In this document: positions 26,893 to 47,282 of the stretch, piece after piece | Numbering within the stretch: the first letter of the stretch is position 1 | Layout: every line of letters begins with the position of its first letter | Origin: Chloroflexota bacterium | GTDB taxonomy: Bacteria > Chloroflexota > Dehalococcoidia > UBA2979 | Direction of reading: 5' to 3' | Length of the DNA stretch: 64,000 bases | Assembly: GCA_947479915.1 (NCBI GenBank) | Contig: CANKAU010000003.1 | Coordinates: 1-64,000 of the forward strand | Made by a program: the position numbers and the translations under genes | The notes under the pieces: generated by a model | Database searches by the model: none | The model's input: the letters and a program-made list of their open reading frames with translations, nothing else | What the model was told of the DNA's origin: nothing

Positions 26893-27690
26893 CTAGCCTT
26901 GGACTTCGAGGACGCGGAAGGTCATCGGACCGGAGGGGGCGTTCACCGTCACCTCGTCGCCAACGCCGTGGTTGATCACCGCGACGCCGATGGGCGAGGC
27001 GACGGACACCTTGCCGTTGGCGGGATCCACCTCGGTCGGGCTGACCAGGGTGATGACCTGCTCCTTGTTCGCCTTGAGGTTGAGGAGCTTCACGACCGAA
27101 CCAACGTTCGCACGCCCGCCCTTCGAGTCCTCGTCGATGATGACCGCGTTGCGGAGGCGGTTCTCCAGGTCGCGGATGCGGGCCTCCAGGTGCGCCTGCT
27201 CGTCGCGGGCGGCGTCCAGCGGAGCGTTCTCGCGGAAGTCCTTGTCCTGCATCGCGTCGTGGAGCTTCTGGGCGATCTCCGGGCGACGGGACTTCTCTTC
27301 CTCGATCTGCTTCTCCAGCCGCTTCAGGCCGTCGAAGGTCACGTGGTAGGCGTTGCCACCCAGCTCCTGCCCGGCGTTCCGGCCGCGGGCGCCACCGGCG
27401 TTCGGCCCGAGGTGCAGCGCGGGGACGAGGTTCTCCTCCGTGAACGTGAGGCGCGAGGCGTAGGCGAGGAAGGAGCGCAGCGGCTCCAGGTGCTCCGGGC
27501 TGGAGTCCAGGTGTTCCTTCACGTAGCGGGCAACGTCCGAGGCGCGGACCTCGCTCATCTGCCGGTCGTTGCCGACGAACGCGATGAACCTGGCGACCAC
27601 GGGCACCTCGACGCGCGCCTTCTCGGGCTCGAGCGCGAGCGAGTTCTCGAAGTGGTCCAGCGCCTCGATCGCAGTGATGCGCTCCGCCAT
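26893..27690 (-). CDS. Gre-type transcript cleavage factor with extra N-terminal integrase-SAM-like domain
   Basis: Residues 113-265 form a GreA/GreB-type protein. The antiparallel coiled coil has the acidic tip DKDFRENAPLDAARDEQ, keeping both catalytic positions (Asp151, Glu154), and the FKBP-like C-terminal domain ends in SPIGVAVINHGVGDEV. Residues 28-95 form an extra helical domain whose pattern resembles the SAM-like core-binding domain of tyrosine recombinases (FIAFVGNDRQMSEVRASDV, LEPLRSFLAYASR). A Gly/Arg-rich linker joins the two. No recombinase catalytic domain is present. The start at 27690 has GGAGG upstream. It should bind the RNA polymerase secondary channel and reactivate backtracked complexes, with the extra domain perhaps binding DNA. 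Confidence 0.75.
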   Translation of the reverse strand: MAERITAIEALDHFENSLALEPEKARVEVPVVARFIAFVGNDRQMSEVRASDVARYVKEHLDSSPEHLEPLRSFLAYASRLTFTEENLVPALHLGPNAGGARGRNAGQELGGNAYHVTFDGLKRLEKQIEEEKSRRPEIAQKLHDAMQDKDFRENAPLDAARDEQAHLEARIRDLENRLRNAVIIDEDSKGGRANVGSVVKLLNLKANKEQVITLVSPTEVDPANGKVSVASPIGVAVINHGVGDEVTVNAPSGPMTFRVLEVQG

Positions 27691-44929: not shown

Positions 44930-44959
44930 TTGTGAGCGAGGGCGCGATCTGGCTATAAT
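44930..44959 (+). promoter_or_regulatory. Strong sigma70-type promoter for greA
   Basis: TTGTGA (44930-44935) and a perfect TATAAT (44954-44959) are separated by 18 bases. The predicted mRNA leader to the ATG at 45081 is about 115 bases. This is the best consensus promoter seen in the window. Confidence 0.75.
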
Positions 44960-45080: not shown

Positions 45081-45554
45081 ATGGCAGAAGAGCCTGTACT
45101 CCTGACTCGCGCTGGCTTGCAGCGCCTGGAGGCGGAGCTTCATGAGCTCAAGACGGTGCGCCGTGCCGAGGTCGCCGCAGCGATCCGCGAAGCGCAGGAG
45201 CTGGGCCCGGACCAGCTGGACGCCCAGTACGAAGACGCCAAGAACCAGCAGGCTTTCCTCGAAGGCCGCATCGGCGAGATCGAGCGGCAGCTCGAGAACG
45301 TCTCGATCATCGACGAGAACGCGGCTTCGAAGTCGAAGCAGGTACAGGTCGGCTCGACCGTGACGGTGAAGAACGCCGCGGGGAAGAGCCAGAAGTACCA
45401 GGTGGTCGGCCCGGCCGAGGCGGACCCGACGCAGGGCCGCATCAGCCACAAGTCTCCCGTCGGCCGGGCGCTGCTCGGCAAGAAGAAGGGCGACACGGTG
45501 ATGATCAAGGCTCCCGCCGGCGACGTGGAGCTCACGGTCACGACCATCGCGTAG
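45081..45554 (+). CDS. greA: Transcription elongation factor GreA with altered coiled-coil tip
   Basis: The 157-residue protein has the full GreA layout: an N-terminal coiled coil (LLTRAGLQRLEAELHELKTV...YEDAKNQQAFLEGRIGEIER) and a C-terminal FKBP-like domain (SIIDENAASKSKQVQVGSTV, ISHKSPVGRALLGKKKGD). GreA enters the polymerase secondary channel and stimulates RNA cleavage using acidic tip residues, DLxENAEY in E. coli. Here the tip is GPDQLDAQY: the positions of Asp41 and Glu44 are Pro and Leu. Cleavage stimulation may therefore be weak or lost, giving a Gfh1-like or chaperone role. The ATG at 45081 was chosen over ATG 45066 because GAGGA lies upstream. Confidence 0.85.
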   Translation: MAEEPVLLTRAGLQRLEAELHELKTVRRAEVAAAIREAQELGPDQLDAQYEDAKNQQAFLEGRIGEIERQLENVSIIDENAASKSKQVQVGSTVTVKNAAGKSQKYQVVGPAEADPTQGRISHKSPVGRALLGKKKGDTVMIKAPAGDVELTVTTIA

Positions 45555-45707: not shown

Positions 45708-47282
45708 ATGCCCTCCGAACAGGAACTCATCGCCCAGCGCCTCGACAAGCGGGAGCGCCTCCTCGCGCAGGGGGACGCCTACCCGGCGCGCGTCGCACGT
45801 ACGCACACCACCGCCGAAGCCGTCGCCACGTACGAGGCGTTCGAGGTTGAGCGCGGTGGCCCCGAGGCCGCTGCCGAGGCGATCGCGGCGCTCGCGGAGT
45901 CGTCCGACCCGTTCCATCGGCTGGGCGTCACCATCGTCGGGCGCGTCACCGCGCAGCGCGTGATGGGCAAGGCCGCCTTCCTCGACCTGCGCGACGTCTC
46001 CGGGCGCATCCAGCTGCACTTCCGCCGCGACGCGCTGCCGGACTTCGGCAACCTCGACCTCGTCGACCTCGGTGACTTCCTCGAGGTCTCCGGGACGCTC
46101 TTCCGGACGCGCACCGGCGAGGTCACCGTCTCGGTGGTGTCGTGGCGCGTGATCACGAAGGCCGTGCGGCCGATGCCGGACGCGTACCACGGGCTGACGG
46201 ACGTCGAGACGCGCTACCGCCAGCGCTACCTCGACCTGATCGCCAACGAGCGCTCCCGCGAGATCGCGTTCCAGCGCGCGCGGATCGTCTCCGCCGTGCG
46301 CCGCTTCTTCCTCGACCGCGAGTTCGTCGAGGTGGAGACACCGGTGCTTCAGGAGGAGGCCGGCGGCGCCGCCGCGCGTCCGTTCATCACGCACCACAAC
46401 GAGTTGAACCGCGACCTGTTCATGCGCATTTCGCTGGAGCTCCACCTGAAGCGGCTGCTGGTCGGCGGCTTCGAGAAGGTGTTCGAGATCGGCCGCGTGT
46501 TCCGCAACGAGGGCGTCTCCTTCCGCCACAACCCGGAGTTCACGCTCCTCGAGTCGTACGAGGCCTACGCCGACTACAACGACGTTGCGCGGATGGTGGA
46601 AGAGCTCCTCGCCAGTGTCGCCACCAGCGTCCTCGGCACGCCGGAGGTGCAGCACGGCGACCACGTGGTCAGCCTGCGCGCGCCGTTCGCGCGGATCACG
46701 TACCGCGACGCCCTGATGCAGCACGGCGGCATCGACTACAAGGACTACCCGACGACCGAGACCCTCGCCGCGCTCGCGCAGCAGCGGCACGTCGCGTTCG
46801 CACCCGGCGCTTCGTGGGCCACGATCCTCGACGCGCTGGTGTCCGAGTACGTGGAGCCGAAGTTGATCCAGCCCACGTTCCTGATGGACTACCCGACCGC
46901 GCTCTCTCCGCTGGCGAAGAAGAAGATCGATGACCCCGACACCGTCGAGCGCTTCGAGTTGTTCGCGCTCGGCTTCGAGATCGCCAACGCCTACTCCGAG
47001 CTGAACGACCCGGTCGACCAGCGCGAGCGCATGGAGGAGCAGGCCCGCAAGGCCGCCGCCGGCGACGAGGAGGCCGAGATGATGGACGTCGACTTCCTCA
47101 CCGCGCTGGAGCACGGCATGCCCCCCGCGGGCGGCCTCGGCATCGGCATCGATCGCCTCGTCTCGCTGATCACAGGCGAGCACTCGCTGCGCGAGGTCAT
47201 TCTGTTCCCGGCGCTCCGCGAGCGGGCGACGACCGACACGATCCACGAGGATCGAGAACCGACCGAGGACGGCGGGGCCTGA
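45708..47282 (+). CDS. lysS: Lysyl-tRNA synthetase, class II
   Basis: LysS charges tRNA-Lys. The 524-residue protein has an OB-fold anticodon domain (VTIVGRVTAQRVMGKAAFLDL, RIQLHFRRD). The class II core includes motif 1 around REFVEVETPVLQEEAGGAAARPF, motif 2 FEIGRVFRNEGVSFRHNPEFTLLE and motif 3 GGLGIGIDRLVSLI with LREVILFPAL. GVSFRHNPEF replaces the common GMDxxHNPEF. The ATG at 45708 begins the protein at the expected place. The TGA overlaps the next ATG. Confidence 0.96.
   Translation: MPSEQELIAQRLDKRERLLAQGDAYPARVARTHTTAEAVATYEAFEVERGGPEAAAEAIAALAESSDPFHRLGVTIVGRVTAQRVMGKAAFLDLRDVSGRIQLHFRRDALPDFGNLDLVDLGDFLEVSGTLFRTRTGEVTVSVVSWRVITKAVRPMPDAYHGLTDVETRYRQRYLDLIANERSREIAFQRARIVSAVRRFFLDREFVEVETPVLQEEAGGAAARPFITHHNELNRDLFMRISLELHLKRLLVGGFEKVFEIGRVFRNEGVSFRHNPEFTLLESYEAYADYNDVARMVEELLASVATSVLGTPEVQHGDHVVSLRAPFARITYRDALMQHGGIDYKDYPTTETLAALAQQRHVAFAPGASWATILDALVSEYVEPKLIQPTFLMDYPTALSPLAKKKIDDPDTVERFELFALGFEIANAYSELNDPVDQRERMEEQARKAAAGDEEAEMMDVDFLTALEHGMPPAGGLGIGIDRLVSLITGEHSLREVILFPALRERATTDTIHEDREPTEDGGA

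Follow-up and report, generated by a model that had tools for sequence, protein, structure and literature searches.

Loss of the catalytic acidic pair from stand-alone GreA, beside an intact fused Gre, across a class of Chloroflexota

GreA is regarded as a general bacterial cleavage factor, and databases give that name to a protein encoded in the stretch of Chloroflexota DNA analysed here (the window, 64,000 nucleotides). A first-pass annotation had proposed that this protein, although of normal size, has lost the acidic tip residues through which GreA acts, and that it shares the labour with a second Gre protein encoded as a fusion in the same window. The question raised by this locus is whether a GreA without its catalytic pair is peculiar to one genome or characteristic of a lineage, what such a protein would be kept for, and which protein would then stimulate transcript cleavage. 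The relevant features are collected in Table 1.

Table 1. Features of the window that bear on the two Gre proteins.
Feature	Position	Strand	Basis
Promoter-like site, sigma-70-type, TTGTGA-18-TATAAT, upstream of greA	44930..44959	+	
Stand-alone greA, 157 aa	45081..45554	+	translation, Pfam/NCBIfam, alignment to 1grj, AlphaFold2 model, VIA-align
Coiled-coil tip codons, GPDQLDAQY (E. coli GreA 40-48, GDLKENAEY)	45204..45230	+	sequence, alignment, codon comparison
lysS, downstream neighbour of greA	45708..47282	+	ORF list, tblastn; named from translation, no family search
Fused Gre: tyrosine-recombinase-like core-binding domain and Gre domain, D..E tip intact (KDFRENAPL)	26893..27690	-	

The stand-alone protein belongs to the GreA/GreB family, scoring 73.9 bits against PF03449 (cut-off 24.5) and 93.8 against PF01272 (26.9), and it passes the NCBIfam cut-offs of TIGR01462 (151.2 against 139) and NF001263 (160.6 against 145). 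Phmmer aligns it with E. coli GreA (1grj) at an E value of 2e-31 and 112.6 bits, with no gap through the tip. An AlphaFold2 model built from 41 sequences (pLDDT 88.1) has a long coiled coil of helices 10-40 and 46-72, with confidence lowest around the tip (mean of 72 for block 41-50). Comparison by VIA-align gave Z scores of 18.6 for E. coli GreA 9a7t, 17.1 for Gfh1 3aoi and 16.9 for 1grj; the predicted fold is about as close to GreA as to polymerase-bound Gfh1. The genome as a whole (2.32 Mb, completeness 93.6%) encodes exactly two Gre proteins, both inside the window; a search of it for zinc-finger proteins of the DksA/TraR type gave none. The nearest named relatives, at 96 and 95% identity, are metagenome-assembled genomes (MAGs) labelled Chloroflexi or Dehalococcoidia, as do most of the closer relatives, and the class surveyed below is therefore apparently Dehalococcoidia.

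The tip itself is where this protein departs from its family. In the gapless alignment, HGDLKENAEY of E. coli faces LGPDQLDAQY, placing P43 (codon CCG) at D41 and L46 (CTG) at E44, so that the proposed proline and leucine do stand at the two catalytic places, and the acidic pair for transcript cleavage is absent. Two aspartates, D44 and D47, lie nearby, at what are positions 42 and 45 of the E. coli protein. Among 38 sequences of the window's family, position 42 is aspartate in 59% and position 45 in 100%, the latter being the asparagine site of canonical GreA; Q47 is likewise invariant, and D45 with Q47 makes a lineage-specific tip pattern. Elsewhere in the class, Thr, Ala or Ser usually occupies position 42 and Asn position 45. 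Both the gapless alignment and the tips of the relatives speak against a shifted register in which D44 and D47 would fill the catalytic places.

Work on other Gre factors gives an indication of what this loss should mean. The Gre of M. tuberculosis cannot do without its first tip acid, as D43N is dead, while E46R keeps activity (PMC3132773, available part); we equate D43/E46 with D41/E44 by motif, as that paper numbers the E. coli residues differently. Loss of D41 should therefore abolish cleavage. D45, together with D42 in the window's sub-group, leaves some negative charge at the tip, and weak activity is possible. An E. coli GreA carrying D41A E44Y has no antipause activity, yet its overexpression is still toxic, which shows that it has a cleavage-independent activity and that binding in the channel can matter without cleavage (PMC7527559, in the text accessible).

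Gre was detected in 379 of 393 class genomes searched, and proteins were read from the matches listed, covering 110 genomes in 95 families. The fused proteins form one clade of 113 rows with a FastTree support of 97 on a tree that excludes the tip columns; with one fragment added, this clade comprises 106 class proteins in 104 of the 110 class genomes, and it is also present in 8 genomes that belong to other families in the phylum. Both D41 and E44 are present in 105 of these 106 proteins, the lone exception (L251) being a divergent additional protein whose genome also encodes an intact fusion. Nine of the 78 non-fusion Gre proteins were left out, being fragments, strongly divergent sequences or, in one case, a probable contaminant. 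Three of the nine have a D..E tip: L254, a contig-end piece that groups with Selenomonad sequences and is the probable contaminant, and two fragments, L216 and L248, possibly parts of fusions. In the 69 usable stand-alone proteins that remain (66 genomes, 55 families), six retain D41, four retain E44 and none retains the two together; any acid is found at both places in 8 and at neither in 43. Where a genome has both kinds of Gre, 57 of 61 have a stand-alone protein without an acid at 41, and in 41 of the 110 genomes the fusion is the sole Gre among the matches listed. Whether the altered tip is lineage-wide, a check that the first-pass annotation had proposed, can thus be answered in the affirmative: at the level of sequence, loss of the catalytic pair from stand-alone GreA is class-wide. 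As a separate matter, strongly divergent extra Gre-like proteins with unusual tips were seen in families f22, f6 and f54 (L189, L195, L197, L198 and L251).

The situation outside the class is different. In Gre proteins of other families sampled in the phylum, from 51 genomes in which no fusion was read, an acid stands at both places in 59 of 60, with D41 and E44 in 39. Six outside genomes have a fusion and a stand-alone protein together; all seven of their stand-alone proteins keep D41 and none keeps E44. The tips can be set in a series, from GDLSENAEY outside the class, through SDTVDNAEY beside a fusion and GGTVDNAEY, GGTANNAEY and STQNNAEY within the class, to GPDQLDAQY and its relatives in the window's family, though this order is inferred and the tree is not resolved well enough to establish it. 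Loss of constraint is local, since in a comparison of the 69 class proteins with the 60 outside, positions 44 and 41 rank first and second of 142 in entropy gain (+1.77 and +1.47; mean -0.06, sd 0.46). A Fisher test for an acid at 41 inside versus outside the class gives a p value of 2e-26, a figure that ignores descent. On the stand-alone tree, built without the tip columns and including 4 fusion rows, 64 of 141 branches are open, and at least 13 changes at position 41 and at least 10 at 44 are counted, numbers in which repeated loss and poor resolution are indistinguishable. A paired phylogenetic test of fusion against loss had 6 supported pairs, too few to reach significance, and the association of fusion with loss is not independent of descent. 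A tip of GELIENAEY, with Glu for D41, was also observed in f102 and relatives outside the class (L265, L275, L278 and L289), in some cases beside a canonical GDLSENADY.

Within the class, the division of labour between Gre proteins is not universal. In one genus (g14: L339, L338 and L340 in G218, G226 and G253) the tip-less GreA stands alone in three of three genomes searched with both Pfam domains; these MAGs are 84-94% complete, so a second Gre gene may have been missed, and the genus may be one without any cleavage factor. The converse occurs in genus g5 (L344 and L343 in G074 and G241), where both genomes have only a fusion-clade Gre with a D..E tip and without the N-terminal domain. In families f3 and f5, copies with D41/D44 persist and a search for the fusion gave none; in f5 this holds for three of three genomes, all with GDITDSAQY (D41, D44) beside a TGTEENADY copy. 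One f5 genome (L023 in G005) has tandem Gre frames at 1444-1956 and 1880-2443, with tips GDITDSAQY and GDITDDSGQY.

The fused Gre was described in the first-pass annotation as active-looking and placed at 26893. Both acids are indeed present in its tip; the coordinate is correct as the 3' end of the gene and not as its start, which is probably the ATG at 27690. Its N-domain gives a profile match to 3nrw (E 2.8e-4) and a weak Pfam match to PF02899 (E 0.025, in 2 of 8 sequences). The fold model was made from a single sequence (pLDDT 59.7, first eight blocks 66-86), and with the Gre half poor, the N-domain alone was compared, giving for 3nrw a Z of 10.3 (rmsd 2.5, 92 residues aligned) and for lambda Int 1z1b a Z of 8.9 by VIA-align. 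Such Z values are near chance level for helical bundles, and the case rests on profile and fold agreeing on 3nrw; on these models the N-domain is of the tyrosine recombinase core-binding type, a four-helix SAM-like fold, and it is possibly DNA-binding. At E. coli positions 47 and 48, which in GreA are Glu and an RNA-contacting Tyr, the fusion clade has Pro (100%) and Leu (92%), and because Tyr48 is lost, the activity of the fused Gre is likewise only predicted. In a search for a conserved neighbour of the fused gre, the examples from the large clusters resembled wrong-strand reading frames. Neither a Gre fused to a recombinase domain nor a tip-less GreA variant was described in the titles and opening abstracts covered, subscription journals being mostly outside reach.

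Away from the tip, the stand-alone protein is well preserved. In the 69 proteins Y48 is kept in 91%, Q55 in 95%, E59 in 100%, S121 in 100%, S124 in 100%, P125 in 98% and G127 in 100%, and by the last four of these residues the predicted polymerase-binding face of the C-terminal domain is conserved. The window's greA has a dN/dS of 0.05-0.27 against 10 relatives, and among 11 sequences the tip codons differ only synonymously; a pseudogene is ruled out by these observations. Purifying selection has kept the polymerase-binding face and the coiled coil, and the greA-lysS neighbourhood is kept as well. By tblastn, 102 of 124 stand-alone rows have a lysS match in the locus, as do 50 of 93 outside rows but none of 114 fusion rows; the tip-less gene therefore occupies the usual greA place. 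The TATAAT promoter reported earlier is present as a promoter-like site that matches at 10 of 12 positions (one such site, where shuffled sequence gives 0.1), and the two nearest relatives (L035 and L036) have a weaker homologous site at the same place, with TATCAT and TACCAT.

Taken together, the most probable explanation is that this GreA orthologue still enters the secondary channel but without the catalytic metal ligands, cleavage being left to the fused Gre. The window gene would be the vertically inherited greA of the lineage, with the same fold and the same place beside lysS. Its product would dock on RNA polymerase with the coiled coil in the secondary channel, where the second catalytic Mg2+ and the attacking water would not be held, so that it would stimulate little or no transcript cleavage. 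Cleavage and proofreading would fall to the fused Gre, whose catalytic tip hardly ever varies, and the tip-less protein would be kept for a role in the channel that does not need cleavage, whether as a competitor of the cleaving Gre, as an obstacle to backtracked RNA, or at initiation. The loss of the pair and the divided labour proposed at the outset are thus strongly supported by comparison (105 of 106 against 0 of 69); the likeness to Gfh1 invoked with them is weak, given the 112.6 bits to GreA against about 62 to Gfh1 and the fact that most tips have fewer than four aspartates.

A Gfh1-like inhibitor, which would actively block catalysis by displacing the trigger loop and using its remaining tip aspartates, perhaps only under some condition such as low pH, is a special case of that explanation and overlaps it. 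The fold match to polymerase-bound Gfh1 is in its favour, as are D42 and the invariant D45, which align with two of the four tip aspartates of Gfh1, and there is precedent in Gfh1 and Rv3788, which act as inhibitors of Gre and displace it (PMC4598747, in the available portion). We nevertheless consider it rather unlikely, as the sequence is nearer GreA than Gfh1, and the 43 proteins without an acid at either place sit poorly with a review that, in the part available, has the acids of Rv3788 critical for inhibition. It is improbable that the stand-alone protein is simply a relaxed GreA, without special function, decaying towards loss after the fused Gre took over. The many different tips and the fusion-only genomes, which indicate that stand-alone greA is often lost, would suit such a course; purifying selection on the tip codons and the rest of the protein, the invariant D45 and Q47, and the genus that keeps the tip-less copy alone argue against it. 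Slightly less probable again is an active cleavage factor in which D42 and D45 replace D41 and E44. The i, i+3 spacing is the same, P41 could alter the turn, and model confidence is lowest at the tip, but the alignment is gapless with conserved residues flanking both sides, D42 is variable within the family, D45 replaces a conserved Asn, and other families of the class mostly have no acid at either position. A job outside the channel, for example as a chaperone, an activity that E. coli GreA reportedly has (PMC3521015, in part), is very hard to credit, since the residues of the polymerase-binding face are conserved at 98-100% and a general chaperone has no need of them.

If GreA has lost cleavage but not channel binding, the name is functionally wrong for most of the class. 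A broader proposal, which we put forward tentatively, is that the class split Gre function: the ancestral greA became a conserved non-cleaving channel factor with a new tip, and cleavage moved to a Gre tethered to a recombinase domain. Should this be true, the tethered, possibly DNA-binding domain could direct the cleavage factor to specific DNA or to DNA-bound polymerases. The class would also be a natural experiment on what GreA does beyond cleavage, the question that the E. coli D41A E44Y protein poses, and the graded tips and the lineages with one Gre alone make a cleavage-independent role directly testable. The genus with the tip-less form alone may proofread by the polymerase itself, as reported for cyanobacteria (PMC7026648, available part).

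Several known systems resemble the arrangement in part. The window protein shares with E. coli GreA (1grj) its family, length, fold, gapless tip alignment and S121/S124/P125, and differs in Pro for D41, Leu for E44, Asp for N45 and Gln for E47; with canonical Chloroflexota greA it shares a place often beside lysS (50 of 93 outside rows). TFS4 of Sulfolobus is also a cleavage-factor paralogue turned polymerase inhibitor, but it belongs to an unrelated family and has three lysines at the tip, where here there are Pro/Leu or Gly/Asn (PMC5715097, in part). Rv3788 of M. tuberculosis is likewise a Gre homologue that does not cleave and occurs together with an active Gre (PMC3132773 and PMC4598747, as far as available), and these accounts have it keeping both acids and lacking the RNA-touching Asn and Tyr, whereas the class stand-alone proteins have lost the acids and kept Tyr48. 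Gfh1 of Thermus similarly has the Gre fold without the canonical D-x-x-E-N tip and shares its cell with an active Gre, its paralogue; orthology with it is ruled out, as the window protein scores closer to GreA (best Gfh1 E value 5.2e-16). Gfh1 and Rv3788 keep tip acids, unlike the class stand-alone proteins, by the same partly available sources: the Gfh1 tip has four aspartates, the window protein has two and most of the class fewer. In the window's genome, unlike the Gfh1 case, it is the tip-less protein that stands at the ordinary greA place and the predicted catalytic one that is the fusion.
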